A DNA stretch of 64,000 nucleotides from Pseudomonadota bacterium. Its GTDB lineage: Bacteria > Pseudomonadota > Alphaproteobacteria > Acetobacterales > Acetobacteraceae. A model generated the notes under the pieces. The model did not search any database. It saw only the letters and a program-made list of their open reading frames with translations, and was not told the origin of the DNA. A program made the translations under genes and the position numbers. The stretch covers positions 1 to 64,000 of the forward strand of contig JAJZFB010000002.1 of assembly GCA_021805545.1 (NCBI GenBank), read 5' to 3'. Shown one piece after another: positions 3,293-59,324 of the stretch. Every line of letters starts with the position of its first letter. Positions within the stretch are counted from its first letter, which is position 1.

Positions 3293-3482
3293 AGCATACT
3301 CCCCGATGAATTTGGCCCGCCGGTGCGGGGCGGCTTTTGTGTCCCCTAGCATCCGCACCACCTTTTTGGCTCTGCTCCGGCTTGTCCCTGGCGGCATCAT
3401 CACCTGCCGGATGCGGCAGTCTCCCGCCGCAAGTTTGGGCGGGGTTTGGTTTACATCAAAAGGTTAGGCGGCGTTTACGCAT

Positions 3483-4226
3483 TTGGCCCAGCTTGCCACC
3501 GGGGTGCGCGCCGCGTTAAGCAAAATTGTGGAACAATCTTATCAAACCACCCAGGACCAGGACGAAGCGGAACGCGATGGCACCAGCGCCTCCCGCAAGG
3601 TCTCGCGCGGCATTATGCGGGCGCTGGAGCAAGGGCGGCTGGTGCCGGGGCAGCGCCTGGTGGAAACCAGCCTGGCGCTGGAATATGGCGTTGGCCGCAA
3701 CGCGGTGCGCGAGGCCGTGCAATGGCTGGCGGCACATGGCGTTATAGATGTCACGCGTCACCGCTCAGCCTCTATCCGCCGGCTGGATGCCGCCGAAACG
3801 CAGGATGTGCTGGAAGTGGCCGAAGCCGTGCTCGGGCTATTATTGAAGGCAGCGGCACGGAATTTTCAGCCCGCCCGGCACGGGGCAAGGCTGCGCGCGG
3901 GGCTGGAGGACGTGGCCCAGGCGGCGCCCGGGGGGTTCGCCAGGGCGCGGCGGCATTTCTACGCCGCGCTGCTGGAGATTAGCGGCAGCCGCGAGCTGCA
4001 CCGGCTGTTCCCCGCCATTGGGCTGCATGTGCTGCTTGCCCAATACCGTGCCGTGGCGGCCATGCCGCACGGGTTGGATATGTTCCGTGCCATGGCCGAA
4101 GCCGTGGCCAATAACGACGTGGAACATGCCCAGGCGCTGGGGCGCGCGCATATCAGCCAGCTTCGCCAGATTATCCTACAATCCATTCAACCCGAACCAT
4201 TCCACGAAAAAGGGAACGCGCCATGA
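3483..4226 (+). CDS. GntR-family (FadR subfamily) transcriptional regulator
   Basis: About 247 aa. The N-terminal winged helix-turn-helix is recognisable from IMRALEQGRLVPGQRLVE and YGVGRNAVREAVQWLAAHG; the rest is an all-helical FCD-type ligand domain. FadR-type regulators usually repress acyl-CoA or organic-acid catabolic genes and release DNA when a metabolite binds. It starts divergently from the CoA-transferase gene, and its TGA overlaps the ATG of the next enoyl-CoA hydratase by four bases, so it is translationally coupled to a likely target. The start is uncertain: 3483 is TTG and a start some 20 codons later is possible. The effector is unknown. Confidence 0.82.
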   Translation: MAQLATGVRAALSKIVEQSYQTTQDQDEAERDGTSASRKVSRGIMRALEQGRLVPGQRLVETSLALEYGVGRNAVREAVQWLAAHGVIDVTRHRSASIRRLDAAETQDVLEVAEAVLGLLLKAAARNFQPARHGARLRAGLEDVAQAAPGGFARARRHFYAALLEISGSRELHRLFPAIGLHVLLAQYRAVAAMPHGLDMFRAMAEAVANNDVEHAQALGRAHISQLRQIILQSIQPEPFHEKGNAP

Positions 4227-11862: not shown

Positions 11863-12088
11863 AGGGAGTGACTCCAAAAGGGTGCAATCAACGCCCATCC
11901 GGCAGCGGTAAGGTTGCTTGCACAGCATAGCTCACCCCCGCATTATCGCCACGTCGCGGTTCCAGGCCAGATCATCGTGACTCCGTCAGGTTTTGCAAAC
12001 CAACAGAATCACAATGGGCTGAAATTGCGCGACGGTTCTTTTCGTTCTGCATCTCATAGGCACTGATGCAGGACGCGGGCGATGGGTA
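11863..12088. other. Intergenic gap argJ / cytochrome c
   Basis: 226 bp between convergent genes. No ORF with plausible codon use and no hairpin with a T-run that I would call a terminator. Local composition becomes more AT-rich here, marking entry into the TonB block. Confidence 0.4.
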
Positions 12089-12442
12089 TCACTTCAAGGT
12101 TTTAAGATACGCGATGATATCTAACACCTGTTGTTGAGACAGCCGGCCTTGCCAAGCCGGCATAGGCTGATCCAGCCGCTCCCCATCTTCGTCACGCGCT
12201 TGCAGAATGGCGCGAGAGAGCAGGACTGTACTTTGGCGATAAGTTTCTTCCAGCCCAGGTGCGCGCAAATCCGCGGAAACGGAATGATCCATTTTAATGC
12301 CACCGGCACCATCGCGCAAATGGCAGCCGCTGCAATGTTCGTTATACAGAATTTGCCCCTGCTGAAGATTTGCATTGCTGGCGACCGCAGATGGAAGAGC
12401 CATGCCCGTAAATATGGCGGCACAAACAAATACTTTTAGCAT
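12089..12442 (-). CDS. Small periplasmic c-type cytochrome
   Basis: 117 aa from ATG 12442. It has a signal peptide (LKVFVCAAIFTGMALPSAVA) and a single class I cytochrome c domain with the haem motif CSGCH, then GAGGIKMD and a likely axial Met in the QPMPAW segment near the C-terminus, finishing with VLDIIAYLKTLK. It is a mono-haem electron carrier in the periplasm. It lies downstream of tonB and a TonB-dependent receptor on the same strand, an uncommon neighbour that may link uptake to reduction of the imported compound, though this is inference. An in-frame extension to 12526 is possible but would bury the signal peptide. Confidence 0.85.
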   Translation of the reverse strand: MLKVFVCAAIFTGMALPSAVASNANLQQGQILYNEHCSGCHLRDGAGGIKMDHSVSADLRAPGLEETYRQSTVLLSRAILQARDEDGERLDQPMPAWQGRLSQQQVLDIIAYLKTLK

Positions 12443-12540: not shown

Positions 12541-13248
12541 TCAGGAGTTAATCGAATCCAGTTGTACTGCGAGATATACCGTTACCGGATGTGTTGGCAT
12601 TGCCTGGCCAAACGGTGGAAAATGCATGACCTTAACAGATGCAACCGCCGACTGGTCAATCAGCGTCTCGCCAGATGAATGTATTACCGATACAGATAAT
12701 ATTCTGCCATCGGGCGCGATTTTGACAGCCAGAGACGTAATACCTGAGAGATGCAGCAGGTCTATCATCCGTGGCACTCTCAGATGGCTCTGCACTGCGT
12801 CATGAACTGCGCTGGCATAAGCCTGCAATGCCGTTTCCTGCATGGCCGGCGAAATAGGGGGTGGTACCACTGGCTGTGGTATCGCTGGCTGTTGCGGGGC
12901 CGGCGGCATGGGGGCAGGCTGTTTTGGCAGTGGCCTAGGTTTTGGCCGCGGCTTTGAGTCTGGCTTTGGTATTGGTTTCGGTTTCGGCGGCAATGGAACA
13001 GGCTTAGGTGGCAGCGGGGCAGGTTTTGGTGGCGCGGGTTTTGGCGGCGCTGGCGGTACATGGGGCGGCTGCGTTACAATTGTCAAATGCGTCACTTGTG
13101 GGCTTACCACAACCTGACGGGAATTATGCATACTTATAAAGCCGAGAATAATTGTTCCCTCGATAGCAATGGCTGTGAGTAAAGCCAAGGGAAAGGTAAA
13201 CCGGTTCCCCCCGATATGATTTATGGTTTGACCATGCTCAAAAGACAT
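12541..13248 (-). CDS. tonB: TonB-family energy transducer
   Basis: 235 aa from ATG 13248. One transmembrane anchor (FPLALLTAIAIEGTIILGFI) near the N-terminus is followed by a long Pro/Lys-rich spacer (about residues 55-130, with repeated PPKP and PKPxP units) and a C-terminal TonB domain (VHDAVQSHLRVPRMI, ITSLAVKIAPDGRILSVSV, VASVKVMHFPPFGQAM). It transmits inner-membrane proton-motive force to outer-membrane receptors, here very likely the receptor encoded immediately upstream. No exbB/exbD are in the window, so those must be elsewhere. Confidence 0.9.
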   Translation of the reverse strand: MSFEHGQTINHIGGNRFTFPLALLTAIAIEGTIILGFISMHNSRQVVVSPQVTHLTIVTQPPHVPPAPPKPAPPKPAPLPPKPVPLPPKPKPIPKPDSKPRPKPRPLPKQPAPMPPAPQQPAIPQPVVPPPISPAMQETALQAYASAVHDAVQSHLRVPRMIDLLHLSGITSLAVKIAPDGRILSVSVIHSSGETLIDQSAVASVKVMHFPPFGQAMPTHPVTVYLAVQLDSINS

Positions 13249-46391: not shown

Positions 46392-46468
46392 GCGCCCGTA
46401 GCTCAGCTGGATAGAGCATCAGACTACGAATCTGAGGGTCAGGAGTTCGAATCTCTTCGGGCGCGCCA
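46392..46468 (+). tRNA. tRNA-Arg (anticodon ACG)
   Basis: 77 nt including CCA. Acceptor GCGCCCG/CGGGCGC, D arm GCTC-AGCTGGAT-AGAGC, anticodon stem TCAGA/TCTGA with loop CTACGAA (anticodon ACG, read as ICG after deamination), T arm with TTCGAAT, discriminator G then encoded CCA. It serves CGU/CGC/CGA codons. Its 3' 46 bases are the attachment site of the integrative element that follows, and integration leaves the gene intact. Confidence 0.97.
46423..46468 (+). repeat. attL: 46-bp direct repeat (tRNA-Arg 3' half)
   Basis: It begins ACTACGAATCTGAGGGTCAG in the anticodon loop region and ends with GGGCGCGCCA. It matches 59279-59324 exactly; the flanking bases differ on both sides (G/T before, T/A after), which fixes the repeat borders. 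Confidence 0.95.
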
Positions 46469-46540
46469 TCTTTCCTAGAAAAATCAAGGGCTTTCTGAGC
46501 ACCCTTCGCGGACGTCACTGGGCATGGGCGCTTCTGCCCA

Positions 46541-46555
46541 CCACAATCCCCCCAA
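46541..46555 (+). repeat. 15-bp direct repeat near attL
   Basis: CCACAATCCCCCCAA, 72 bp inside the left end, recurs exactly at 59125-59139, 139 bp inside the right end, in the same orientation. It is a possible integrase or accessory-protein arm site. The rest of 46469-46662 holds no gene. Confidence 0.5.
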
Positions 46556-46662
46556 CGGCCCCATTCCCTCGTCGATCACCGCGCGAGACCTGCCAGAGAG
46601 GACGCGCGCGGGGCTGGTTCCGACTCCGGGCTTCATCTATGGAACCTGCCGCAGAGGTGTCC

Positions 46663-47520
46663 ATGCTTCCACCCACGTCGATCTTCCGTCGAATGCCCGC
46701 GGCCTTGCCTCTCATGCAGAGACGATTTCTGGGCGCGCTCGCGTACGCCAGCGATTGTGCTGAACTCTCGTTCGCTCGGGTCAAGGACTCAGCTCGCGCC
46801 TATCATCTGCCCCTTGATGGTCTGAGTCACGAAGAAGCCGGCTGGGTCCCGGCACGGCGCCTCAGCATCATCGCCGATGCGTGGGCTTGTGTCGATCATG
46901 TGAATCGCGCCCGGGCGCTCGTGAAGCGATCTCCGTATGGCGACCCGCGCCCATCGGAGGTTGACCCATTCCTCGCCGCGACGAAGCCCGCATTGGATAT
47001 CCGGAATCGAATCCAGCACCTTGAGGAAGACATCTTCACCGGCGCGAACTGCGCCGAAGGCAACCCGGTGCTGGGCGTCGTTGCTTGGGCGGACGCGCGC
47101 ATCGCTGGAGGCCACGTCCGGTATTCGATCTCGTCTGGGCCGACCATCGACAACGGTCTCATGGCTTGGACAACGCTCGTGGATGTGGATGGAGCGGACG
47201 ACGTCTTGGACTTCACGCTGAAGGCGGCGGATCGGACCATTCACCTGGACGAGACCATGAAGGCTCTGGCTGACTTCATGGCAGAGTTCGAAGTGACGGT
47301 GACGAGAGCAATCATTTCTGGCCTTCGTGAAACCGCGCTGCAGCGGGGAGTATCACTCCAGGAGCCTCGTCCTCATGGAATCGCGGATATGACGATGGCG
47401 ATGAGGATGAGGCGCAAGGCGGCCGGTGGCTGGGAGTGTGGCGATGGCGACGGCTTCGGCCTAGTCGAGGTTCCATCTGGCTCGTTCAATATCAGCCAAG
47501 AGCCGGTTGATGTAGTCTGA
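46663..47520 (+). CDS. Putative HEPN-like protein of unknown function
   Basis: 285 aa from ATG 46663 (AGAGGTG before it). The ATG at 46639 is an alternative with no ribosome-binding site. The N-terminal half is predicted helical (RRLSIIADAWACVDHVNRAR) and contains ALDIRNRIQHLEEDI, where RNRIQH (encoded at 47002-47019) fits the Rx4-6H RNase motif of HEPN domains. HEPN proteins act as RNases in abortive infection and toxin-antitoxin systems. The C-terminal half is unassigned. It is the first cargo gene next to attL. No antitoxin is adjacent, so the call is tentative. Confidence 0.5.
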   Translation: MLPPTSIFRRMPAALPLMQRRFLGALAYASDCAELSFARVKDSARAYHLPLDGLSHEEAGWVPARRLSIIADAWACVDHVNRARALVKRSPYGDPRPSEVDPFLAATKPALDIRNRIQHLEEDIFTGANCAEGNPVLGVVAWADARIAGGHVRYSISSGPTIDNGLMAWTTLVDVDGADDVLDFTLKAADRTIHLDETMKALADFMAEFEVTVTRAIISGLRETALQRGVSLQEPRPHGIADMTMAMRMRRKAAGGWECGDGDGFGLVEVPSGSFNISQEPVDVV

Positions 47521-47601
47521 CGGTTCGCCGACAGGATAGAAAGATCACCACCGTCTCGTGAGAGAGAATTCAGATGGACGGCGCCGTGCTTGCCCAGAGC
47601 A

Positions 47602-47871
47602 TCATGTCGCTCGGCCCGGCTTCCTGCCGCTGCGGAGCGTCATGGGCTCCTTCTCCCCCGGCTCCGGCTGCCGGAACAGCTCGCCGACTTCGACCTCTAG
47701 GGCCACGGCGATCCTCTCCAAGAGAAGGATGCCCGGATTCTCGCTGCCGCTCTCCAGCCTGCTCACATAGGCGCGGTCGATCCCCGTGTCCGCCGCGAAG
47801 GCGTCCTGCGAGAGCTTCTTGTCCACCCTCAGCCGCCTGATGTTCCTCGCCACGAGTGCCTGCACATTCAT
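47602..47871 (-). CDS. XRE-family helix-turn-helix regulator
   Basis: 89 aa. A single HTH of the Cro/CI type: VARNIRRLRVDKKLSQDAFA, then GIDRAYVSRLESGSENPGIL and IAVALEVEVGELF. The C-terminal tail is short and basic (EPMTLRSGRKPGRAT). It is divergent from the EcsC/zinc-finger operon and sits 26 bp from a palindromic operator, so it likely represses both. It might be the element's immunity/lysogeny repressor or an antitoxin-type regulator for the neighbours. Confidence 0.88.
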   Translation of the reverse strand: MNVQALVARNIRRLRVDKKLSQDAFAADTGIDRAYVSRLESGSENPGILLLERIAVALEVEVGELFRQPEPGEKEPMTLRSGRKPGRAT

Positions 47872-47896
47872 CCGTCGATGCAGGGCAGCTTGCGGA

Positions 47897-47923
47897 CGTG
47901 TAATCCATGTAATATCTTACACG
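47897..47923. promoter_or_regulatory. Palindromic operator between XRE and EcsC genes
   Basis: CGTGTAA (47897-47903) pairs with TTACACG (47917-47923), and within it TGTAA (47908-47912) pairs with TTACA (47917-47921) around TATC. These half-sites stand 26-52 bp before the XRE start and about 75 bp before the EcsC start, in the only AT-rich patch nearby. They are plausible autoregulatory binding sites. Confidence 0.5.
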
Positions 47924-47998
47924 GAATGGAAGCGCTCCGGTCCCGCCGGGCGCAGCAACAGGGGTGGCGGCTTCTGCCACCGAGCAAGAGGCTGAGGC

Positions 47999-48715
47999 AT
48001 GGACGGACCCGAGACGACGGCGCCGGCGGAAGAGGCCGGCCGCGTGACACAGATGCTGGACACGATCTGGAACGAGATCGTGCTCGGCGATTCCAAGCTG
48101 AATCCGGAGAAGTCCTGCTTCGATCTGGCCGATGAGTACAGGCACTCGGGGAAGACGGCGGAAGAGTGCGCGGAGAACTTCATTGGCTGGCAGACCGCGA
48201 AGGCCGGCGCCGCCGGCTTCGCCCTGGGGCTTCCGGGCTTCGCCGCGATGCCCCTCACGGTCCCGGCCGACTTCCTGTCGGTCGCCTACCTCCAGCTCCG
48301 CATGGTGGCCGTCATCGGCATCCTCTTCGATTGGGACGTCCGCTCGGACCAGTTCAGGACGATGGCGTACCTCAGCCTGCTCGGCTCCGCCGCAGGGGAA
48401 CTCACCCGCGACCTTGGCATCAAGGCGACGACCAAGATCGCCATGGGCGCGATCAACAAGGGGGTCTCCGGCGCCGCGCTGAAGAAGATCAATCAGGCCA
48501 TCGGCACCCGGCTGGTGACGAAGGCCGGCAGTACCGGCGTGGTCAATCTGACGAAGATCGTGCCGATTCTCGGCGGCCTGGTTGGCGGCGGCGTCAACGC
48601 CATCGTCACCCGCCAGATCGGGAAGACCGCGATCTCGTGGCTGAAGGAAGGGCCGCCACCGCACGGGGACGATGGCGGAGATGACGGCGACATCATCGAG
48701 GGAGAGACTGCATGA
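47999..48715 (+). CDS. EcsC-family protein
   Basis: 238 aa. The EcsC pattern is AAGFALGLPGFAAMPLTVPADF, then SVAYLQLRMVAVIGILFDWD and, nearer the C-terminus, ATTKIAMGAINKGVS, VNLTKIVPILGGLVGGGVNA and ARQIGKTAISWL-like text. The N-terminal 70 aa is a unique acidic segment and the tail (HGDDGGDDGDIIEGE) is very acidic. EcsC proteins associate with membranes; their biochemical role is not established. The gene overlaps the next by four bases (ATGA), so the products probably act as a pair. Confidence 0.75.
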   Translation: MDGPETTAPAEEAGRVTQMLDTIWNEIVLGDSKLNPEKSCFDLADEYRHSGKTAEECAENFIGWQTAKAGAAGFALGLPGFAAMPLTVPADFLSVAYLQLRMVAVIGILFDWDVRSDQFRTMAYLSLLGSAAGELTRDLGIKATTKIAMGAINKGVSGAALKKINQAIGTRLVTKAGSTGVVNLTKIVPILGGLVGGGVNAIVTRQIGKTAISWLKEGPPPHGDDGGDDGDIIEGETA

Positions 48716-49212
48716 ATTGCTACGAACACCCGGACGCCACCTCGGTGGCGACCTGCGCCTGCGGGCGCGGGCTGTGCGGAACGTGCCAGGGGAGGCACCA
48801 GCCGCCGAGCTGCGAGCCCTGCTACGCGGCCGCCCTGGGCGCGCGCATTGGCAAGACGCAGCAGCGTCTTGCCATCAACTGCTTCTTCGCCATCATCTAC
48901 CTCATCGTGGGCTTCCACTTGCTCACCGGGACAAGCGCCGGCAGCTTTGTCTTGATAGCTGCGGGAGTCTGGGGGTTTTTGGGGTTCCGCTGGCTCTTGG
49001 ACGGTCTGCTCGGCGCCATCCGGCTGACGATCTTCGCCAGTGGCATGACCTGGGTCGTGACCTACCTAATTGGCAGCATCATCTGCTCCCTGGGGGGCCT
49101 GATCATCGTTCCGGTGGAGATCATCCTACAGTGGCGCCTGCTCAAGCGGCTCAAAGCCGAGGTTGCGGGAACGTCACCCGCGCCTGCTGCGGCGATCGGA
49201 GCAACGTCGTAA
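48712..49212 (+). CDS. Zinc-finger (B-box-like) membrane protein
   Basis: 166 aa. The first 40 residues have a Cys/His set (Cys3, His6, Cys15, Cys17, Cys22, Cys25, His29, Cys34, Cys37) resembling a B-box or treble-clef zinc site. Then come three hydrophobic segments: about 52-72, 80-110 and 112-140 (FAIIYLIVGFHLLTG, LIAAGVWGFLGFRWLLDG, WVVTYLIGSIICSLGGLIIV). The start overlaps the EcsC stop, so the two are translationally coupled. A soluble zinc domain joined to a membrane part suggests a membrane-tethered sensor or partner of EcsC; function not known. Confidence 0.7.
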   Translation: MNCYEHPDATSVATCACGRGLCGTCQGRHQPPSCEPCYAAALGARIGKTQQRLAINCFFAIIYLIVGFHLLTGTSAGSFVLIAAGVWGFLGFRWLLDGLLGAIRLTIFASGMTWVVTYLIGSIICSLGGLIIVPVEIILQWRLLKRLKAEVAGTSPAPAAAIGATS

Positions 49213-49407
49213 GGCCCAACCGCCATGCGGTGCCGTGGGCGACCAGTTAGACGCCCTGCTGGGACTCTTGGGGATGGCCGAGGTCGTCGCCGGACGCCTG
49301 TTGGAGAGAGCCGAGCAGCACGAAGCTACCACCACCTGGGAGGGATGGATTCTCGGACGGTGATGTGGCTGGCCTGGGCGGCGGGCGCCAAGACATGCCC
49401 CGAGAAC

Positions 49408-50421
49408 TTATTCCTCGGGTGGCTCTTCGCCTGGGGCGTCCAGCATGGCGTCGGTCGAGAGCGCTTTGACTCGGGAGGCGAACACGGCGCGGAAGCGGTC
49501 CATCTTCTCCAGCATCCAGCGGTGCAGCTCCGGGTACTGAGTTGTCTGGGCCGGATCGACGCCCGACCGGAAGATTGCAATCCTCGACGCCTTCTTCCCC
49601 GGCAACTCCTGCCATTCCAGCGCGGTTCCAAATTCGGCCTCGATCAAGCCCCGCTGGGCATCGAGAGCACGGAAGGCTGCCTTGCTCGGATCGTTGCTCA
49701 TGTACAGCTCGACACCAATGCGGCTCTTCTGGGTACTGGCCGTTGCGTCGATCAGGAAGCCCGCTCTGCCGATCGAGAACTCCGCCCAGTGCCTCGCACG
49801 AGGTCTCTTCAGCTCGAACGATGACTTCTGCTCCTTCAGGTGCGAAGCGAACGCCGTCCAGTAGGCGAGACTGACCCGTTGACTTTCTGTCGCCACGGCA
49901 CTCTCAGCCCTTCTCACGGCCGTACGGGCCACCTTCGCCCAGTCATTCGGGCTGGCGACGATGTTGAAGCGCGGCGCCGCAGGAGAGGGGCCGATGCGCC
50001 ACAGCTCGATCTCGATGGCGAAAAAAGAGAAATCTTCAAGGGTGTTGGCGTTTAACCAGTCCACCGCCGCCCGGTGGTCGGGTTGGATACTCTCGGCGAT
50101 CCAGACCACGGTCTTGGTTTCCTCCACTCCACCCAGATAGGTGAGCACCTGGCCAAGATGGCTGTGGTCGGTCGGACCGAACTGGTTCTCGATGATGACG
50201 CGGTGCTCGGCCTCATCGGTTGAGCGAGCGAGGATGTCTGCGCGGAATCTCCCCACCGACCTTTCAACCGCTTCGACTTCAAGCCCCATGTTGAGCGCCT
50301 GCCCCAGGAGGGCGATGTTGCGGGGCTCCGCCAGCCACGGCGTGAAATTGCCGTCCTCGGTCGGCCATGCAGTTCTCAACGGCACCTTCTCGAACGTGCC
50401 CAGGGGGATGACTGAACTCAC
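49408..50421 (-). CDS. DUF4268 protein, putative PD-(D/E)XK nuclease
   Basis: 337 aa. Residues ~50-95 hold GRFRADILARSTDEAEHRVI followed by IENQFGPTDHSHLGQVLTYL: Asp62 and Glu78-x-Gln80, a D...ExQ variant of the PD-(D/E)XK core. The C-terminal half (WTAFASHLKEQK, YMSNDPSKAAFRAL, WQELPGKKASRIAIF, HRWMLEKMDRFRAVF) is DUF4268. Such proteins are often found near restriction and defence genes; their target is unproven. It is the last gene before a small membrane protein gene and the integrase. The gap 49213-49407 before it has no gene. Confidence 0.75.
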   Translation of the reverse strand: MSSVIPLGTFEKVPLRTAWPTEDGNFTPWLAEPRNIALLGQALNMGLEVEAVERSVGRFRADILARSTDEAEHRVIIENQFGPTDHSHLGQVLTYLGGVEETKTVVWIAESIQPDHRAAVDWLNANTLEDFSFFAIEIELWRIGPSPAAPRFNIVASPNDWAKVARTAVRRAESAVATESQRVSLAYWTAFASHLKEQKSSFELKRPRARHWAEFSIGRAGFLIDATASTQKSRIGVELYMSNDPSKAAFRALDAQRGLIEAEFGTALEWQELPGKKASRIAIFRSGVDPAQTTQYPELHRWMLEKMDRFRAVFASRVKALSTDAMLDAPGEEPPEE

Positions 50422-50504
50422 TCTTCGACTCCTTGGCCGTTCTGGCTCCCGTGGTGATCCGCGCGAAGGCTATGCCATCTCGCGCACGGGAGCCAGCCTC
50501 TGGA

Positions 50505-50759
50505 TCATGCCGTGGTTGACGGTCCACCGGAGAGCCACGCCCACATGGCACAGACGCCGGCGGCGGTGAGGACGATGTCGAATTGGGGCGCGAGGCGCAG
50601 CTCGACCTCGGCGCCCAGCAGCGCCATCACCACCGGCAGGGTGAGGACGATCTTCACGGCTGCGGGCAGGCGATTCCAGAGGCTGCGCTTCCTGGCCGGT
50701 GACTGCTCCTGGCGCGGCGGCGCGACCTCGACGGCGAGCTTCTTCTTCTCATTCCTCAT
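50505..50759 (-). CDS. Small membrane protein of unknown function
   Basis: 84 aa from ATG 50759 (GAAAGGAACCACC before it). A basic N-terminus (MRNEKKKL ... SPARKRSLWNRL) is followed by one or two hydrophobic segments (IVLTLPVVMALLGAEV and IVLTAAGVCAMWAWLSGG). No family recognised. It lies just downstream of the integrase gene on the same strand, behind a GC hairpin. Confidence 0.5.
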   Translation of the reverse strand: MRNEKKKLAVEVAPPRQEQSPARKRSLWNRLPAAVKIVLTLPVVMALLGAEVELRLAPQFDIVLTAAGVCAMWAWLSGGPSTTA

Positions 50760-50795
50760 GGTGGTTCCTTTCAAGTTCGGGTTCGATGGTAGAGC

Positions 50796-50821
50796 GGGGA
50801 AGGCGCGCGGGCGCCTTCCCC
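50796..50821 (+). terminator. GC hairpin downstream of integrase
   Basis: GGGGAAGGCGC (50796-50806) with GCGCCTTCCCC (50811-50821), 4-nt loop, followed on the plus strand by a weak TTCTT. On the minus strand it has no T-run. It may act as a transcription punctuation point between the integrase and the small membrane protein gene. Confidence 0.4.
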
Positions 50822-50849
50822 TTCTTCGTGCTGGTCGTGGTGGTTCGGC

Positions 50850-52061
50850 CTACGCGGCGTCCCGCACCTCCGCCTTCGCGGCCTCAGGCTCGGGCAGCAG
50901 GTTCCAGGCCCGCAGCGCGGTCGTTGCGGTGTCGATCAGCCTCTGCGGCGAGTGGTGCGCGTACCTCGTCGTCGTGCTGAGCTGCGTGTGGCCGAGCACG
51001 GTGCCGATCTCATTCAGAGGTGTCCCGGCGTTGGCCAGGGCACTTGCGAAGCTGTGCCGCAGGTCGTGGACGCGCAGATCCTCGGGCAACCCCGCCGCCT
51101 CCCTGGCCCGCCGCCACGCGCCGCGCACGCCTTCCACCGGCTGGCCCTCCCGGCGGGCGCTGGGGAACACGTAGGGATTCTCCGGGTGGAACTGCCGCTT
51201 GGCGAGTTGGCGCTGGAGGATCGCCACGGCCACGGTCGAGAGCGGGATGTGCCGCGTGCGGCCGGACTTGGAACGCGGCACGGTGAGGATGCAGCGTTCC
51301 AGGTCCACGTTCTCCCACGTCGCCTTCAGCGCCTCGCCCCGGCGAGCGCCGGTGACGGCGAGGAACGCCAGCACGGACGCGGCGGTCTCGTCCGGGTCGG
51401 CCGCCAGCGCCCGGAAGAGCGCCTGCGTCTCCGCCGGGGACAAGTACTTGTCGCGGCCGACCTCGCGCAGCATCCCCGGTGACGCGGCCGGGTTGCGGCC
51501 CTGGTACAGCTCCCATTTGAGCGCCTGGTTGAACATGGCGCGCAGGGTGGCGAGGTGCCGGTTGACGGTGCCGTTCGCCAGTCCCTCTCCCACCATCCTA
51601 CGCCGCAGTTCCGCCACGTCCTGGGGCGTGACCTCGTCCAGCGCCTTCTTCCCGATGGCGGGCAGGATGCGCTTCCGCAGGTACGCCTCGACGTTGCCGG
51701 CCGCGCGCAGGTGCTCCTGCACGTGCGGGACGTATCTGTCCTTGGCGAATTCTGCGACGGTGGGGACAGCGCGCAGCTTTGCCCTCTCCGCCGCCGGGTC
51801 GCCGCCCAGGCTGACCTCGGCCTTGAGCTGCTCCGCGCGCTTGCGGGCCTGGTCCACGGTGACGTCGCCGAGGCGGCCGAGCCTGACCTCGTGCCGGCGG
51901 TTCCGCGCGTCATTGTACCGGAAGTAGAACGTCACGCCGGAGGCGCGCTGCTCGGCGATGAAGCCGGCGAGCCTGTCGTCGAAGATGCGGTTCTTCACTG
52001 CGCCCTCCGGCAGGGGCGGCAGCTTCTGCACCAGGGTGCGGGTGATGGTGGTCGCGGCCAT
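50850..52061 (-). CDS. int: Tyrosine recombinase (phage-type integrase)
   Basis: 403 aa. N-terminal arm-binding region (KNRIFDDRLAGFIAEQR ... VRLGRLGDVTVDQARKRAEQ), SAM-like core-binding domain (about 100-190) and catalytic domain with Arg240 (TGARRGE), Lys265, His332-x-x-Arg335 (HDLRHSFASALA), His358 (LGHTQ) and Tyr367 (TTTRYAHHS). It catalyses site-specific recombination at the tRNA-Arg att sites. Unusually it lies in the middle of the element, 4.4 kb from attL and 7.2 kb from attR. The AlpA-like gene is immediately upstream. Confidence 0.95.
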   Translation of the reverse strand: MAATTITRTLVQKLPPLPEGAVKNRIFDDRLAGFIAEQRASGVTFYFRYNDARNRRHEVRLGRLGDVTVDQARKRAEQLKAEVSLGGDPAAERAKLRAVPTVAEFAKDRYVPHVQEHLRAAGNVEAYLRKRILPAIGKKALDEVTPQDVAELRRRMVGEGLANGTVNRHLATLRAMFNQALKWELYQGRNPAASPGMLREVGRDKYLSPAETQALFRALAADPDETAASVLAFLAVTGARRGEALKATWENVDLERCILTVPRSKSGRTRHIPLSTVAVAILQRQLAKRQFHPENPYVFPSARREGQPVEGVRGAWRRAREAAGLPEDLRVHDLRHSFASALANAGTPLNEIGTVLGHTQLSTTTRYAHHSPQRLIDTATTALRAWNLLPEPEAAKAEVRDAA

Positions 52062-52141
52062 GTGGCTCCTTCCTGTGGTGGATGGGGATGGGGGTCATCG
52101 GGGTCTTGGAGGTGCGGCGCGCAGGCCCAGGCGGGCGACGC

Positions 52142-52381
52142 CTACCCGGCAGTGCTGTGGCGCCGATTCGCCTCGACGAAGGCTTCCAAATCTTCCTGCT
52201 GGTACCGAACGTACTTGCCCGAGAGCTTGATGAAGGCCGGCCCGGCGCCCGTGCCGCGCCAGCGCTCCAGCAGCTCGGCGGTGACGCCCAGGCGCTCGGC
52301 GGCCTGGGGCGCGGTGAGCAGCGGGCGCAGCCCCCGCTGCTCGGTGGTGGTGGTGCCAGCCTCGATCGTTTGCTTGGCCAT
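52142..52381 (-). CDS. AlpA-like helix-turn-helix protein (excisionase/activator candidate)
   Basis: 79 aa from ATG 52381 (GGAGACGAG upstream). A MerR/AlpA-type winged HTH: LLTAPQAAERLGVTAELLERW, then GPAFIKLSGKYVRYQQEDLEAF. AlpA proteins activate integrase expression or act as directionality factors in phage satellites and mobile islands. It lies 80 bp upstream of the integrase on the same strand; the gap contains the G-rich repeat GATGGGGGTCAT (52087-52098). An upstream ATG at 52438 would add 19 residues. Confidence 0.82.
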   Translation of the reverse strand: MAKQTIEAGTTTTEQRGLRPLLTAPQAAERLGVTAELLERWRGTGAGPAFIKLSGKYVRYQQEDLEAFVEANRRHSTAG

Positions 52382-52505
52382 GTCGTGCTCGTCTCCATCT
52401 TCGGGCGCCGGTGGCGCGCTTGCCCCGGCTTCGCCCATGGAGCTGTTCGACGGTGGCACTTGGCCGCCAAAAGCCGCGCATGACCCTCCTTGCCCGCGCC
52501 GCGTC

Positions 52506-52535
52506 AGCGCCGGGCGGGCCAAAGCCCACCCGGCG
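52506..52535. other. GC hairpin after cassette copy 2
   Basis: GCGCCGGGCGGG (52506-52517) with CCCACCCGGCGC (52524-52535), one G-T mismatch, 6-nt loop. It lies just downstream of the 208-aa cassette gene (minus strand) and has no following T-run. Possibly an mRNA 3' stabiliser or attenuator. Confidence 0.45.
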
Positions 52536-52572
52536 CGTTGGCAATCCTTCGGCCTGACTCCTCGGCCTTCGC

Positions 52573-53199
52573 CTACCCGGACTCGCCGGAGGCACCCGCC
52601 ACCAAGCGTGCGATCCGCACGCGGCGCATCTCGGCCGCCAGGGCTTCGCGCACGGCGTTGCGGCAGGTCCAGAGCCGCGAGATGTACGGCGCCCGAGCGG
52701 ACCAGTCTCGCAGCGCCTCGTCCACCACGATCAGCACCTGCTCCGGCGTCACGCCTTCCTCGCGGCTGGCGGGATCGGGGCAGAGTGGCAAGTGCAGATC
52801 GCCTGCGCGCGCCAGCGTCCATCTATACGGCGAGGGTAGACCGCCGGGACAGAATTCCACCCCGGCGCCGAGCGGCTCACCCGCCTGCATTTGCCGGACC
52901 GCCTGCCCGAGCGCCTCCAGCACGGCGAGCGCGCCGCCCTCCGGCATCCGCGCGTGCTCCAGCGCCATGCGGGCCTGCACCACCAGAACGAGTTGGCGCA
53001 GCGCCCAACCGGACGGCGCGGAGCAGACCGTGCCGTACCGCACCGGCAGGCCGAAGCCGTCGCTGCCGGTGTCCAGTACGGCGACCCAGAAGCGCTGCTC
53101 CCAGTAGGGCAGCACGTCGGCGTTGGTGAACAGCACGAAACGTTCTCCGTCTCCCGTGCGGCGCACAGCGACGATGGATTTCTCGTCGAAGTCGATCAT
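52573..53199 (-). CDS. Cassette copy 2, large protein (unknown family)
   Basis: 208 aa. No recognised domain. Features: a Trp-rich N-terminal half (LPYWEQRFWVAVLD), a central helix-rich stretch, and a conserved segment RWTLARAGDLHLPLCPDPAS then EEGVTPEQVLIVVDEAL. The last 50 aa are Arg-rich. It is paralogous to the 222-aa protein 0.5 kb upstream (PWTLARTGSFTIPLCPDAEA, GVTPEQLLAVIEMAL). Its ATG overlaps the stop of the 118-aa partner by four bases. Part of a two-gene cassette repeated in tandem. Confidence 0.7.
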   Translation of the reverse strand: MIDFDEKSIVAVRRTGDGERFVLFTNADVLPYWEQRFWVAVLDTGSDGFGLPVRYGTVCSAPSGWALRQLVLVVQARMALEHARMPEGGALAVLEALGQAVRQMQAGEPLGAGVEFCPGGLPSPYRWTLARAGDLHLPLCPDPASREEGVTPEQVLIVVDEALRDWSARAPYISRLWTCRNAVREALAAEMRRVRIARLVAGASGESG

Positions 53200-53552
53200 G
53201 CGCGCACGTCTCCCTCGGTGCTGGCGGCCGGAACCATTTTGGTTCCGTCCGATTCGCCAGCCTGGTCCACCTCGAACACCAGCCAGGAGTCGTCGCTGTT
53301 GATCGTGGCAGCCACACCCTCGGGAATCTTGAAGCAGACCAGCTCCTCCTCGTTGTCGTCGTCGTTGAGGCGGAGCAGGTCGTCCGGCTCGCGTACCTGG
53401 ATGCCGAGCGTGGCGAGGTACTTGATGACATGGAGCGGGTCCTCGCCGGTGCGGACGGCGTCGACGAATTTGATCCGCTGCACGTCAGGCAACTTCTCGA
53501 CCTCGGAGTACCGGGAGAGCAGCGCCTCCAGGGTTTGGATTTCTTGGTCCAT
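53196..53552 (-). CDS. Cassette copy 2, small acidic protein
   Basis: 118 aa. Very acidic: NDDDNEEELVCFKIPEG, with a GEDPLHVIKYLATLG core. No known family. It is paralogous to the 99-aa protein at 54322 (shared LP..., GDDPLHLIPYFADLG, DLL). The short/long pair with 4-bp overlaps in both copies suggests an obligate two-protein unit, as in toxin-antitoxin or inhibitor-effector pairs, but no mechanism is visible. Confidence 0.7.
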   Translation of the reverse strand: MDQEIQTLEALLSRYSEVEKLPDVQRIKFVDAVRTGEDPLHVIKYLATLGIQVREPDDLLRLNDDDNEEELVCFKIPEGVAATINSDDSWLVFEVDQAGESDGTKMVPAASTEGDVRA

Positions 53553-53571
53553 GTGTTGGGCTCCAGACGCA

Positions 53572-53601
53572 GGAAGCCCCGCCGGTGAGGGCGGGGCTTC
53601 C
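53572..53601. other. GC hairpin between the two cassette copies
   Basis: GGAAGCCCCGCC (53572-53583) with GGCGGGGCTTCC (53590-53601), perfect 12-bp stem, 6-nt loop, in the spacer between the copy-1 large gene and the copy-2 small gene. No T-run on the minus strand. The spacer after copy 2 has a similar hairpin. Confidence 0.5.
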
Positions 53602-53656
53602 CGGTCAATGCTGGTTGGAAGGATTGCCCAGGCCGGCGTCGGCCTGGGCACCAGCA

Positions 53657-54325
53657 TCACATGCGGCTGGACTCCGACTCTGCCGCGTCCACCGTGGCCA
53701 CGTGCTCCTCCCAGCGCGCCATTGCCCGCCTGACCTCCAAGGCCAGCGCCGCCTGCACCGCGCGGCGCGCCTCCCAGCAGCTCCGCCGCCAGGGCGTGGC
53801 CGGCAGCCAGGAGCTGAGCGCCATCTCGATCACGGCGAGCAGTTGCTCCGGCGTGACGCCGCGCTGCCGCGCCTCCGCGTCCGGGCAGAGCGGAATCGTG
53901 AATGACCCTGTCCTGGCCAAGGTCCACGGGAACGGCGATGCCACCCCGCCCGGCGGGGCCGGCTCGAAGGCGACCGGCGGCACCGCCCAGCCCGCCTGGG
54001 GTTCTCGATGCACGGCGGCGGCCCGGTCCAGGTGGCGCACGATCTCGGCCAGGACGGGTTCGCCGGAGTGCGCCTGCTCGGCCTCGAACCGGGCCAGCGC
54101 CACGGCCAGGAGCTGGGCCATGGTCCAACCGTCGAAAGGGCCGAGACTGGCGAGGCGGAGGAACACGCCGCCGTCCGCCATCTCGACCACCGCGCCCCAC
54201 AGGCGCAGCGGTCGGCCGGGGACCAGATCGGCGGTGACGAGGGCGACGGCGCGCCCGGTGCTGGTCTTGTGCCAGGCGACATTGTCGCGGCCGCCCATGG
54301 CGCGGGCCGTCATTCCCGCGCTCAT
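53657..54325 (-). CDS. Cassette copy 1, large protein (unknown family)
   Basis: 222 aa, no known family, paralogue of the 208-aa gene. Segments shared: TLAR, PLCPD, GVTPEQLL and an Arg-rich C-terminus (RRAVQAALALEVRRAMARW). The middle of the molecule (AVALARFEAEQAHSGEP ... HLDRAAAVHREP) is helical. The start overlaps the stop of the 99-aa partner gene by four bases. Confidence 0.7.
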   Translation of the reverse strand: MSAGMTARAMGGRDNVAWHKTSTGRAVALVTADLVPGRPLRLWGAVVEMADGGVFLRLASLGPFDGWTMAQLLAVALARFEAEQAHSGEPVLAEIVRHLDRAAAVHREPQAGWAVPPVAFEPAPPGGVASPFPWTLARTGSFTIPLCPDAEARQRGVTPEQLLAVIEMALSSWLPATPWRRSCWEARRAVQAALALEVRRAMARWEEHVATVDAAESESSRM

Positions 54326-54621
54326 CGCGTGAAGAGCGCCCAGAGGCCGTCCACGGCGAGGAAGACGGCGACGCCCTCATCGACGCGGAACGCCTGGATT
54401 TCTTCCTCGCCGGGGTCGGTGCAGGCTGCGAGGAGGTCCTCAAGGTTGTCGATCCTCCTGCCCAGGTCAGCGAAGTATGGAATGAGGTGCAGCGGATCGT
54501 CGCCGCGCGCCAGCGCGTCGGCAAGGCGCACATGAGGCACGTGGCGGGGCAAATCGTTGCCCTCGGCGTGGCGGCGCACCAGTTCGCCCAAGGTTTGGAG
54601 TTGGCGGGGAAGTCCTGTCAT
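54322..54621 (-). CDS. Cassette copy 1, small acidic protein
   Basis: 99 aa from ATG 54621; the longer in-frame extension to 54702 is Arg/Pro-rich and unlikely. Resembles the 118-aa copy: LQTLGELVRR, ARGDDPLHLIPYFADLG, DNLEDLLAACTD and an acidic C-terminus (DPGEEEIQAFRVDEGVAVF). It is followed by the copy-1 large gene with a 4-bp overlap. Confidence 0.65.
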   Translation of the reverse strand: MTGLPRQLQTLGELVRRHAEGNDLPRHVPHVRLADALARGDDPLHLIPYFADLGRRIDNLEDLLAACTDPGEEEIQAFRVDEGVAVFLAVDGLWALFTR

Positions 54622-54831
54622 GTCGGTGGTCTCCGAGGCGCGGCACGGCCAAGCCCTCAGAGGCTGGCCGCTCCTCGCCGTGTGGGGTTGCTCGGCCCGC
54701 ACGGTGCGGGCGAGACCATCACATCCACCTCAGCTCGGACGCCGTCGCGCCGCTTGGTCGGTCACAGGCGATGGGGGTCATGGGGGGCATGGGAGGCGCC
54801 CGCCCGTGCCCACGAGATTCCGCCAGGGTCC

Positions 54832-56157
54832 CTACCCGGCTTCGCCGCTGTCGCCCCCGCCCAGCGGCTCCGTCCCCACGCCCGCCAGGGCCTGCCGCGC
54901 CGCCTCCAGCTCCGGCGCCACGGTGAAGAGGCGCGGCATCCCCTCCGCCACAGCCAGCGCGCCGGCGGTCTGCATCTCCTTGAGCGCCAGCAGCACGGGG
55001 TTGCTCGCGGCCTGCCCGCGCATGTCGAATTTGCCCTCGGCCAGCAGCCTCTCCAGGGCCAGGTTGGCCAGAGGCTCCACCTCCGCGCTGCGCGGGCGGC
55101 CGGCGGCGCCCGCCTTCTTCGGCGCCGGGGCGGCCAGGCGCAGCAGCGGCGCGAACGCCAGCAGGAAATCCGCGCCGGTGCGCGGCACGGCCACAAGGGC
55201 CTCGTTGAGTACGTCCACCGCCTCGTCCAGCAGGGCCTCGGCGCCGTGCGCCAGATGGGCCAGCTCGTCCGCGACGTCCGCGCCCAACAGGCTCGGCGCG
55301 GCGGTGGGGAGGCGCAGGCGCTTGCGCAGGGCGGAGACCACGGTGGGGCTGCGCAGCGAGACCTCCACCCTGACCAGGTCCGGCCGTTTGGCGTACACTT
55401 TCCTCTCCGGCGCGTTCTTGCTGCCCTCGTGCCAGTAGGCTGTGAGCGCGTTCCCGCGCTGCTTGGCGAAGAATCGGCCACCCTCCTGCCGCGAGCCCAG
55501 GATCGGGCGGTCGCGCAGGCGGCGAACGAAGTGCTCAGCGCCGTCCTCGTACAAGTAGTCGCGGCAGAACTCCGCCTGCTGCACCCGGACCGCGCCCAGG
55601 AGCTGGTCTGAGGCGACGCGGGAAGCCACCGCCAGCGCCGCCACGAAGGCGTCCACCGCCTCGGCCACCGCGCGGAGCTGGAGGGGCAGCAGGTCCACGT
55701 AGGCGCCGGGGGAGTAGGGGGCGGAGAGATTGTCCTCGCCCCTTGGCCCTACGGCCAGGGGGGAGGGGAGCAAGGAGCGCAGCGCGCGCATGGGGTCCGG
55801 CAGGAGCGTGCTGCCCCGGCGGATTTGGAGCCTGCCGGCGCCGCTGGGGACCAGGGCGAGCTGGCCAGCCAGGGAGACGGAGGCACCGCCAGCAAGGCGG
55901 ACAGGCGCAGGGCCTACCTTGAGCGGCCGTTTCAGGACTGCACCCGGTTCGGGCGCGCGGAGCAGGAAGCCGGCGCGGGCCAGCGCCCGGCAGAACCTGG
56001 CCGCCTCGCGCGGCGTGGCTTTCACCGGAAGCAGGATGTCCAGGCTGAGCTGGACGCGGTCGAGGAGCACGTCCGCCGCCTGCCCGGCGGCAGACGAAGC
56101 CAGCACACCCGCCACGGGAGCAGCCCCGGCGTCTTCGACTTGGTCCGGCACGCGCAT
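54832..56157 (-). CDS. Candidate replication initiator (gene II/X-like)
   Basis: 441 aa. Residues 243-259 carry KVYAKRPDLVRVEVSLR, the K-x-Y-x-K ... R-x-E-x-x-L-R pattern seen in rolling-circle initiators related to phage gene II protein. The N-terminal half (DRVQLSLDILLPVKATPREAARF) and RRLRDRPILGSRQEGGRFFAK fit the same type. Residues 330-441 are unassigned. It would nick or initiate at an element origin. It precedes the duplicated cassette, AlpA and integrase in the same direction, an arrangement like rep-xis-int modules of other integrative elements. Moderate confidence. Confidence 0.5.
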   Translation of the reverse strand: MRVPDQVEDAGAAPVAGVLASSAAGQAADVLLDRVQLSLDILLPVKATPREAARFCRALARAGFLLRAPEPGAVLKRPLKVGPAPVRLAGGASVSLAGQLALVPSGAGRLQIRRGSTLLPDPMRALRSLLPSPLAVGPRGEDNLSAPYSPGAYVDLLPLQLRAVAEAVDAFVAALAVASRVASDQLLGAVRVQQAEFCRDYLYEDGAEHFVRRLRDRPILGSRQEGGRFFAKQRGNALTAYWHEGSKNAPERKVYAKRPDLVRVEVSLRSPTVVSALRKRLRLPTAAPSLLGADVADELAHLAHGAEALLDEAVDVLNEALVAVPRTGADFLLAFAPLLRLAAPAPKKAGAAGRPRSAEVEPLANLALERLLAEGKFDMRGQAASNPVLLALKEMQTAGALAVAEGMPRLFTVAPELEAARQALAGVGTEPLGGGDSGEAG

Positions 56158-56440
56158 CTCCCAGCAGAATCCGCCGCGAGGGTGGCGAGGGAGGGCCGAG
56201 AAAGCAAGGGGCGGAGAGATTTTCGAGCAGAAGGAGGACTTGCAAGTGAGCGTCCGGCTGGGCTGGTTCGGCGCCCATGATCGTCACGTCCGAAGCTCAA
56301 TGAGCCGCGGCGGGCGCGGGCAGAGGCACCTCTGTGCCCCCTATGACTTCGATGCCCCTTCGACATGAGTGAGCGGCGCGACGGTGCTGGTTCCGCCCTG
56401 GCCATTCCAATGCCGGCCTGTCGATCACCCGCCCCCCAGC

Positions 56441-56474
56441 ACGAAAAAAGCCCTGCCGTGAACGGCAGGGCTTT
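56441..56474 (-). terminator. Rho-independent terminator after the primase-like gene
   Basis: On the minus strand a GCCCTGCCGT / ACGGCAGGGC stem with a short loop is followed by CTTTTTT. It lies 167 bp past the primase-like stop at 56641 and before the initiator start at 56157, so it isolates the two transcription units. The rest of 56158-56640 holds no gene. Confidence 0.85.
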
Positions 56475-56640
56475 GGTCCGAGACCAGCGCGCGCCCCAAG
56501 GGCGCGCCGGTCATCACGAATCTGGATTCTGGGTGCAGCTCTCTATTTCCTGCGGCGCCGTATGGCGCCGGTATCGGTCCTGTGGACCGCCAGCCCGCCG
56601 TGGCGACGGCGGGGAAGCACGCCTATGAGCGGCGCGTCAA

Positions 56641-58356
56641 TTACGGCCGGGTCGGGCCGCTGAGGCCGTCGAGACTATCAACGGTCTCGATCTGACCAGC
56701 ATTGTCACCACCGCCGGGGCGGTGGTCCTCATCGTGGAGCGCGGCATCGGTGCGCTCCAGCCGATACCTGTGCGGGGACCACTTGCCCGCCATCTCGATC
56801 CACCGCAGGCGGAAACCGTTGCAGGCCGCACCGTTGAGCTGCATGAGCTTCCGGGCCACGGCCTGGCGGCTTTCGCCGTCCTGCGCGAGCAGGTGCCATA
56901 CATTGCTGTGCAGGTCCTTGCCCGTCACCTGCCGGTTGCCGTGGTGGTGCCACCACGTCTCGAAGAGCTCGGCGAGCCATGTGCGCTCCGAGTCACCGGC
57001 CTGCCGCTTGGCGATCTCCTCGACCGCGTCCTTGCACTCCAGCGCCAGCAACGGGTCGCGGCACATCCGGCTCCACTGCTCGAAGCTGCCCATGGAGCGG
57101 CCGCGCGGCAGGTCGTCGCCCTGCTGCAATCCCCACGTCACGATCGTCAGGACATCAGAGAGAATTTTTCCCCGGTCCCGCCGCGTCTCCGCAAGGAAGT
57201 CGCCCGTGAAGCTGCGCGCCTCGGGGCTCTCCACGCCGGGGTTCAACTGCACCTCCAAGAAGCGGCGGCGCAGATCTTCCGTGACGCTGAGCCCGTTTCC
57301 CGTGACGCAGATGAAGGTCGCGGAGTTGAGCGGCACCAGCGTGCTGGTGCGGAGAACGCGGACCTGTGCCGGGTTCTCCGTGATCGCCGAGGCGAGCAGG
57401 TTGGACCGCAGCTCGGTGGCGTTCACGTTGTCGAGCAAGATGATCGGCGTGGCCGTCATCAGAACGGCGGCCAGGCGCTTGTCGAGCTCGTCTACGTTAT
57501 GGCCGGTCGTCATCGCGGTCGGCGAGAGGCCATAGGCCACCTCCGCGATGAAGCGCACCAACATGCCCTTCCCCGAGCCGGCACCGGACAGGTACGGCGC
57601 GGTGACGAGCAGGCCCGGCACCAGCCCCAGGCTGGCCCGGCACGCGGCGGTCAGCAACGCAGTGAGGTAGATGCTCTCATCCGCGCCCGGCGGCTGGTCG
57701 ATGTCAACCACCGGCTCCTCGGAATCGTCCACCTTCACGCGAACAGCGTCCGCGAAAGGGAACGTCCTGAGGCGCTTCCGCAACCGCTTGAGGGCGGCCA
57801 CAGCAGCGCGGCGCTCGGCGCGATTCTGGATCATCACAGCCACAGTGTTGTGGCAGTAGATGCCCGAATCGGGGTCGTAACCATCCGTGTGCCGGATGGT
57901 GCCGTCCGGTGCGAGGAGCGGCCCGTAGGCGATCCCATTGAGCGGCGGCAAGTTTGCCGCCCCGAAGGTGGACAGAGCCAGATTCGACACCCGTGCCGGG
58001 AGAGCAATGTCCTCCCGGCGGGTGCCAGACCGCGTCTTCCTCTCGGCGTACGGCTGCGCGATCTCGTGGAGGAGGGTCGTCACATCGTCCGCCGTCAGGA
58101 TATGCGCCACGATCAAGCCCGGCTGTTCGCCGGGGCAGAAGGTGACGGCCCTGCCGCCGCGCCGAAAGACGCCCAAGGGCTCGATCAGTTCGCAGACACG
58201 CTTCGCCGTACCAGGCGGGTCCTCCGTCACCACATGGAACGGCGGCTTGACGCCGCCGTTCTCCTCATCGGAGGCCGGAGCGTCAGGCTGGGCGTTCGTC
58301 TCGTCTGGTGCGGGCGGCCGCTCGGGCGGCAGATCGTCCTCATCAAGTGTACTCAT
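56641..58356 (-). CDS. P-loop primase/helicase-like protein
   Basis: 571 aa. Residues ~255-265 have Walker A GAGSGKGM (Lys263), Walker B TPIILLDNVN (Asp299), a sensor-type FICVTGNGL and the Arg-finger-like EDLRRRFLEVQL. The N-terminal 250 aa is unassigned but could hold a primase-type domain. The C-terminal part is similar to the helicase half of phage/plasmid primases (P4 alpha and DUF927-type). It probably helps replicate the element. Its 5' end faces attR; a G-rich leader of ~0.9 kb precedes it. Confidence 0.8.
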   Translation of the reverse strand: MSTLDEDDLPPERPPAPDETNAQPDAPASDEENGGVKPPFHVVTEDPPGTAKRVCELIEPLGVFRRGGRAVTFCPGEQPGLIVAHILTADDVTTLLHEIAQPYAERKTRSGTRREDIALPARVSNLALSTFGAANLPPLNGIAYGPLLAPDGTIRHTDGYDPDSGIYCHNTVAVMIQNRAERRAAVAALKRLRKRLRTFPFADAVRVKVDDSEEPVVDIDQPPGADESIYLTALLTAACRASLGLVPGLLVTAPYLSGAGSGKGMLVRFIAEVAYGLSPTAMTTGHNVDELDKRLAAVLMTATPIILLDNVNATELRSNLLASAITENPAQVRVLRTSTLVPLNSATFICVTGNGLSVTEDLRRRFLEVQLNPGVESPEARSFTGDFLAETRRDRGKILSDVLTIVTWGLQQGDDLPRGRSMGSFEQWSRMCRDPLLALECKDAVEEIAKRQAGDSERTWLAELFETWWHHHGNRQVTGKDLHSNVWHLLAQDGESRQAVARKLMQLNGAACNGFRLRWIEMAGKWSPHRYRLERTDAALHDEDHRPGGGDNAGQIETVDSLDGLSGPTRP

Positions 58357-59278
58357 TCTCTTGCAGTTCCCGAAGTAGCTGTGCCCGCCACGGCCAAATG
58401 CTCACTGTCGAAACGTTCCTTGGCGCCCCATGTAGGGAACGTCGTGGCGTCGTTCGGTGGTGAACCCAGGTTGTGGCGGCGCAAGGATGGCGAGCCACCC
58501 TTCTAAAATCTCGCTTGGAAGAGCGAGACCTCTGCTGTTCGCCAGCATCAGCCCGGACCGCGCAGCGCGGTTCGGGCAGTCTGGAACTGCACCCAAAAAA
58601 TCCAGATTCAATTGTCAAAGAACAAGGCTTAGTCTGTAATTTATCCAACTATGGACGATTTGACTATCTCGTCCGTCCATTCAAAGATGCCGCTTGAAAG
58701 CAAACCTCTTAATCATGGGCTGGGCTGCCTACCTATCAATAGTGTGCGACAGACGCAAGGCCGCACGTGGAATGTGCAGAAGTTTTTTTGGTCAGTGCGG
58801 AAGGCGCCGCACTGACGCGGGCAGACTCTCTTGTGAACGCGCGGAGTATCGGGATCATCGGGGGCCATCGGAATCGAAGAACCGTGTCCCCCGATGGGTC
58901 CCATGCTTCTTGGAATGGGTACGGAACGCTGGCCGGAGACGACATGGTCACGTCGCCCTTCGGAGGACGAGCGGCCCGGCACCGCAGGCCATGTCCATGG
59001 CGGCGGTGAGGCGCCGCGAATGGGTGGCACCCACGAAGGCAGCGGGGTGCGGCCGCGAGCAGGGGCCGACGCAGCGCCACATGCGCGGCGAGCAGGTGCC
59101 ATGATCCCTCCCACCTGCGTCCCCCCACAATCCCCCCAAGGGATCAGCGGCGATGGGGGACGGTCAGGTGCCATCATGGGGTACAACCCGAGCGAGTCGC
59201 GTTCCGCCGCTTGGCCACGGAGAGCGAACAAGGGCCATCGGGGGCGGTCAGCGGCCATTGGTTGCTTGATCGAAACGT
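58357..59278. other. Leader region without a convincing gene
   Basis: 922 bp between the primase-like start and attR. Reverse ORFs such as 58402-58611 have no ribosome-binding site and no family. It contains GTCAGTGCGG (58791-58800) pairing with CCGCACTGAC (58807-58816); a T-run sits on the wrong side for termination. Two imperfect direct repeats at 59152-59175 and 59236-59260 share GGGGG(A)CGGTCAG..GCCAT, and the 15-bp repeat CCACAATCCCCCCAA is at 59125-59139. It could hold the origin and integrase/AlpA sites. Confidence 0.4.
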
Positions 59279-59324
59279 ACTACGAATCTGAGGGTCAGGA
59301 GTTCGAATCTCTTCGGGCGCGCCA
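59279..59324 (+). repeat. attR: 46-bp direct repeat
   Basis: Exact copy of the tRNA-Arg 3' half, starting ACTACGAATCTGAGGGTCAG and ending GGGCGCGCCA. It lacks the 5' half of the tRNA, so it is not a functional gene. It marks the right border of the element. Confidence 0.95.

Follow-up and report, generated by a model that had tools for sequence, protein, structure and literature searches.

An EcsC gene coupled to a zinc-finger-like membrane gene on a tRNA-Arg element

What does a small XRE-type regulator control when it faces an EcsC gene and a membrane-protein gene on a mobile element, and could such a unit protect its host from phage? In the window, by which we mean the whole 64,000-nucleotide stretch of DNA analysed, the XRE/Cro regulator (47605-47871, reverse strand, 89 aa) matches HTH_3 (1e-12) and the PADLOC profile Control_protein (2e-13). 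Divergent from it across a 127-bp spacer lies a forward-strand gene (47999-48715, 238 aa) for an EcsC family protein, which matches PF12787 at 1.2e-7 (32.2 bits, above the Pfam gathering score of 30.4) and the PADLOC family PDC-S29 at 2.9e-60 along EcsC residues 8-215 (9-212 of 220), and whose glycine-rich hydrophobic segments span residues 68-114 and 176-208. The third ORF (48712-49212, forward strand, 166 aa) begins within the EcsC stop, through a 4-bp overlap that reads ATGA, and encodes a zinc-finger-like membrane protein with four N-terminal Cys/His pairs (C3/H6, C15/C17, C22/C25 and C34/C37), behind which lie hydrophobic stretches at 49-100 and 105-145. This layout is the one described in the original prediction. 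The zinc protein has no named family in Pfam, PADLOC, NCBIfam or PHROGs, and a sequence search of the PDB with EcsC gave no match. Predicted structures of the zinc protein and EcsC were too poor to use (mean pLDDT 55 and 51, respectively).

The three genes are cargo of a 12,856-bp integrative element (46469-59324) inserted in a tRNA-Arg gene of a 2.79 Mb genome. The left attachment site is a 46-bp direct repeat (attL, 46423-46468, forward strand) formed by the 3' end of tRNA-Arg(ACG) (46392-46468), and a repeat search located its second, exact copy at 59279-59324 (attR, forward strand). Together with a reverse-strand tyrosine integrase (50850-52061; PF00589, 1.2e-34), these repeats bear out the proposed mobile-element setting. 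Also on the reverse strand are an HTH_17 (AlpA/excisionase-like) protein (52142-52822; PF12728, 2.4e-8; phrog_66 excisionase, 4e-10) and a primase/replication-like protein (56641-58356) that has no Pfam primase match and resembles phrog_29234 (2e-48, no function) and phrog_19930, a polymerase/primase (2e-7). Between attL and the XRE gene, a 293-aa ORF (46639-47517) found no match in Pfam, PADLOC, NCBIfam or PHROGs; its place is taken by a DUF1835/DUF3658 protein in two of the sister elements described below (L047 and L090). Next to the zinc-protein gene lies a candidate defence gene of the family PDC-S11 (DUF4268; 49408-50421, reverse strand; PADLOC, 6e-115), whose only relative among the sister elements searched is in L090 (about 75%), none being found in L046 or L047. 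The stretch 52573-54702 shows what looks like a tandemly duplicated pair of genes: in sister elements, the place of orf52573 is matched by orf53657 and vice versa, at about 34-41% identity.

The coupled pair recurs within one element family

Relatives of the integrase (E<=1e-60) were present in 15 of the 249 genomes of a family-level survey, and our set of sister elements comprised 12 stretches around such integrases plus two contig loci from a genome-contig search. The XRE/EcsC/zinc-protein triad occurs in four independent element copies, namely the window, L090, contig C23 of genome G354 (L046; L091 is the same contig and was counted once) and G425 (L047), and the ATGA overlap is present in all four, as expected of the coupled pair that had been proposed. 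Genome G354 is a congener of the window's organism. By simple hydropathy, the zinc-protein copies of L090 and L046 have 3-4 membrane segments. Between pairs of the four copies, XRE has a dN/dS of 0.06-0.24, EcsC 0.11-0.24 and the zinc protein, which evolves fastest of the three, 0.07-0.47. All are under purifying selection and are therefore real genes, and their being chance ORFs is ruled out. The Cys/His pairs are invariant among the zinc-protein copies and are kept even in a 27%-identical homologue on an Alicyclobacillus plasmid, whose neighbourhood, over the stretch read, has no EcsC annotated.

Outside this family the picture changes. No zinc-motif partner lay within 2.5 kb in any of 25 non-Acidocella EcsC loci with a visible downstream side, several of which extend less than 2.5 kb on one side. 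The survey covered 26 loci, from whose denominator L028 was dropped as its downstream side lies beyond the contig end; it excluded the weak PDC-S29 profile matches L003-L013 (E 2.5e-10 to 9e-4) and the broken fragment L040, and, among near-identical viral loci, counted both L092 and L093 and left out L094 and L095. Scans of viral contigs with the window's EcsC and zinc protein gave no relatives. A class-level search with a zinc-protein alignment matched one of 289 genomes, the window's own, and a phylum-level search with an EcsC alignment matched two of 398, one of them again the window's own. A weak zinc-protein match in G306 was dropped when reading of the sequence showed no such protein. 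Co-occurrence of the pair elsewhere, on which the original prediction had staked itself, thus holds for all four element copies with this EcsC but for none of the 25 other loci: the pair is real but limited to one element lineage.

The cargo zone often holds defence genes

EcsC and the zinc protein are absent from the stretches of three Acidocella elements, L078 (G354:C34), L079 (G509) and L080 (G472), that have an integrase related to the window's. In the same zone, L080 carries a type I restriction-modification (R-M) set and L078 a match to PADLOC dCTPase (an antiphage deaminase; 1e-153), while L078 and L079 have in common a GT25 glycosyltransferase (87%) and a methyltransferase (71%) that do not look like defence genes. 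When ten cargo proteins from L046, L047, L078 and L080 were scanned with PADLOC, three R-M proteins and the dCTPase came out as defence; a further one hit nothing but regulators, and the remaining five had no match. In view of these mixed results, the zone between integrase and att site is a cargo slot that is often but not always used for defence. A defence role for the window's pair, as originally proposed, is made plausible by the PDC-S29 profile and by the defence genes that sister elements carry in this slot.

The regulator appears in this zone without the pair as well. In L078 (2726-4713), the glycosyltransferase and methyltransferase genes are preceded by a gene for an XRE protein that shares 61% identity with the window's; the spacer there, different in sequence from the window's, is palindrome-like. 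This XRE regulator seems to be reusable with other cargo. No XRE match was found within the stretches covered of L079 and L080, though both keep the integrase.

EcsC occurs in defence and housekeeping contexts

By tblastn, EcsC relatives occur in 204 of 72,556 plasmids (179 of them from Klebsiella) and in 2 of 50,697 phage records; among family genomes, 16 of 200 gave a match, including three from Acidocella. Some of the neighbourhoods are suggestive of defence. One locus lies near csm6/csx16/cas1/cas2, another beside a methylase/HTH/endonuclease set, and on the phage-like contig L093 (1651-5678) an OLD/Gabija-like gene, an unnamed protein and EcsC stand in a row. Most plasmid EcsC loci that we read have no annotated defence gene nearby. 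Three family genomes have a 4-bp overlap between EcsC and ureE (L036 2055-2543, L037 2073-2552 and L039 2028-2513). UreE is a nickel chaperone, and the overlap may point to a part for EcsC in handling urease or nickel, or simply to operon capture. At L053 EcsC is near an rpsF-like gene, called by reading the sequence, and a Klebsiella copy is near TerY-C/PP2C/kinase genes. EcsC is therefore not tied to defence everywhere; it has housekeeping contexts too. Urease-linked EcsC fits the PDC-S29 profile just as well (4e-60) as the window's copy does (3e-60), so that a match to this profile alone does not mean defence. Our literature search, which covered sources outside subscription, found no experimental function or biochemistry for EcsC.

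These contexts supply the main rival to an anti-phage reading, namely that EcsC and the zinc protein form a general cassette for membrane or envelope stress that helps cells in an acid habitat to keep membrane or metal homeostasis, the island carrying a useful trait. The ureE, rpsF-like and TerY-C/PP2C/kinase neighbours and the metal-binding-looking motif of the zinc protein speak for it, but control by an XRE regulator and a zone that holds R-M and dCTPase genes in sister elements do not, nor does the strong PDC-S29 match, weakened as this is by the equal match of urease-linked EcsC. On balance we regard a stress or homeostasis role as less likely, though the best of the alternatives.

A conserved block lies between the divergent genes

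The original prediction placed two pairs of half-sites in the intergenic region, and both are there: an outer pair, CGTGTAA (47897-47903) and TTACACG (47917-47923), and an inner pair, TGTAA (47908-47912) and TTACA (47917-47921). The palindrome alone is weak evidence, because 139 of 1000 dinucleotide shuffles of the 127-bp spacer reach or exceed the same perfect inverted repeat with arms of at least 7. It is conservation, not the palindrome, that lifts the region above chance. Alignment of the four spacers delimits a putative promoter/operator block (47878-47934) in which 45 of 57 columns are invariant, as against 16 of 52 in the leader (47935-47986), a difference whose Fisher value of 4e-7 is indicative, both stretches having been picked after viewing the alignment. 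For comparison, 17 of 36 fourfold sites are invariant in XRE and 58 of 98 in EcsC. The expectation that the half-sites would be conserved holds for one pair only: the inner arms are largely kept (a perfect 6+2+6 in G354 and G425, 5/5 in the window, one mismatch in L090), but the outer pair is not, its left arm being gone in G425.

Within the block, TTGCGG (47890-47895; TTGCGA in G425) is followed after 17 nt by a second hexamer (47913-47918) that overlaps the inner repeat, TGTAAT..TTACA (47908-47921). These promoter hexamers were picked with a script of our own, and since an automatic consensus promoter scan gave no such hexamers we treat them as a reading and not as a result. A 20-letter pattern of the block, allowing up to 3 mismatches, gave exactly one match each in the triad-bearing genomes G000 (the genome of the window), G354 and G425; the other matches among the five genomes searched, in G000 and G472, were all at 3 mismatches, and G509 had none. 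A block that is divergently placed, unique in position and conserved fits local autorepression by XRE.

A putative self-repressed membrane effector

By sequence, the closest solved structures to the window's XRE are the type II R-M controller (C) proteins C.AhdI (8e-8) and C.BclI (3e-7), which it resembles in size, HTH and sequence; with the HTH_3 match, this supports the repressor-like regulator that had been predicted. C proteins act at a divergent promoter with a palindrome ahead of a potentially toxic gene, and they make dangerous genes come on late and keep their expression at a set level. The likeness of their operators to the window's is one of layout. No restriction or methyltransferase gene linked to XRE was found among the 10 window proteins scanned (46639-58356). 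A C-protein-like XRE, a block that fits autorepression, and an EcsC with hydrophobic segments whose partner is largely hydrophobic beyond its double Cys/His site lead us to favour a repressed two-part membrane effector.

We infer that the conserved block in the spacer is bound by XRE, which thereby represses the promoter of EcsC (its -10 position would fall within the palindrome) and probably also that of its own gene. EcsC and the zinc protein would be produced as a coupled pair and act jointly at the inner membrane. More speculatively, repression may be lost when the element enters a new cell or during phage attack, whereupon the derepressed pair would accumulate and damage or block the membrane, and phage production would stop. 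That the genes form a self-regulated two-gene membrane cassette is, in our judgement, very probable; that its job is phage defence falls somewhat short of an even bet. For the reading as a whole, in which a satellite-like island in tRNA-Arg carries a membrane effector of two genes that is self-repressed and probably anti-phage, we estimate a probability of about 0.45. In its favour are the triad with its overlap in four copies, the purifying selection, the Cys/His pairs kept in a distant homologue, the conserved and uniquely placed block, the controller-like XRE, a PDC-S29 EcsC adjoined by PDC-S11, the R-M and dCTPase genes in sister zones, the defence neighbours of some other EcsC genes and the predicted activation of an EcsC-like gene at a CRISPR locus described below. 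Against it count the housekeeping contexts of EcsC with their equal PDC-S29 match, the confinement of the pair to one element family, the many plasmid loci with no annotated defence gene, the sister cargo that is not defence-like, a palindrome within chance and two poor structure models. PDC-S29 is, moreover, a candidate family that the portions of its source available to us list without a test (PMC11514479).

An exclusion function, also raised in the original prediction, finds no such footing, as nothing seen points to exclusion. No conjugation gene was present among the proteins scanned. It is improbable that the cassette is an addiction or stability module, in which XRE would restrain a toxic membrane pair and loss of the island would be punished. 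A mobile element with a small XRE opposite two membrane-protein genes and a unique local operator block would suit such a module; but the antitoxin and toxin of common type II systems share one operon, whereas XRE is divergent and 127 bp from EcsC, its best relatives are controller proteins and not antitoxins, and no antitoxin-like binding partner was seen. Least probable is that XRE is the element's lysogeny-type switch, which EcsC and the zinc protein merely adjoin: a regulator on a mobile element with a relative before other genes in L078 would be in keeping with this, but the integrase-bearing L079 and L080 have no XRE match in the stretches covered, and in G000 the block pattern occurs below 3 mismatches only here, not at the integrase or excisionase.

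Compared with known systems, the putative repressed effector is like PDC-S29 in its EcsC profile match and mobile-element setting and differs in having a divergent XRE and, as a fixed partner, a zinc-finger membrane protein. The 'S' in PDC-S29 denotes a single-gene system, whereas a coupled second gene is present here in 4/4 element copies. The sigma factor of a type III-E CRISPR (CASP) locus is also predicted, in the part of the report available to us, to activate an EcsC-like gene along with defence genes (PMC10028731); activation by a sigma factor there contrasts with XRE control here. With a fixed partner, the cassette offers a clean handle on the membrane action of EcsC and on the defence status of PDC-S29, and a compact regulated unit is of value as many plasmids carry EcsC and some CRISPR loci have it alongside. 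We would give only a small chance to a stronger version, in which EcsC and a cross-brace zinc-finger membrane protein are a new two-part effector whose zinc domain would sense infection and gate EcsC, a controller-type repressor delaying expression on island entry.

The element itself resembles P4-like satellites and PICMIs, with their cargo hotspots, in having an integrase, an HTH_17 gene and a primase-like gene with variable defence cargo near one end (PMC10803314, PMC9122126). As far as the corresponding source could be consulted, PICMIs are characterised by an integrase (PF00589), an AlpA-like protein (PF12728), a primase with DUF3987/DUF5906 and a site in fis (PMC10803314). The element has the first two (1.2e-34 and 2.4e-8) but no Pfam match to either DUF, and it sits in tRNA-Arg, not fis, without a known helper phage.

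Two of the sister copies show further rearrangement. L090 is on a contig labelled as a Nevskia MAG, has an EcsC 94% identical to the window's and an Acidocella-type tRNA-Arg element, and reflects either mis-binning or transfer. Along 1135-3949 its DNA identity to the window is a mosaic (zinc protein 97.8%, EcsC 91.9%, XRE 88.8%, PDC-S11 74.6%), which suggests recombination within the cassette. In L046, a partial second copy of orf50505 (12963-13094, 11867-12139) separates orf50505 from the zinc-protein gene, which looks like the trace of cargo brought in by recombination.
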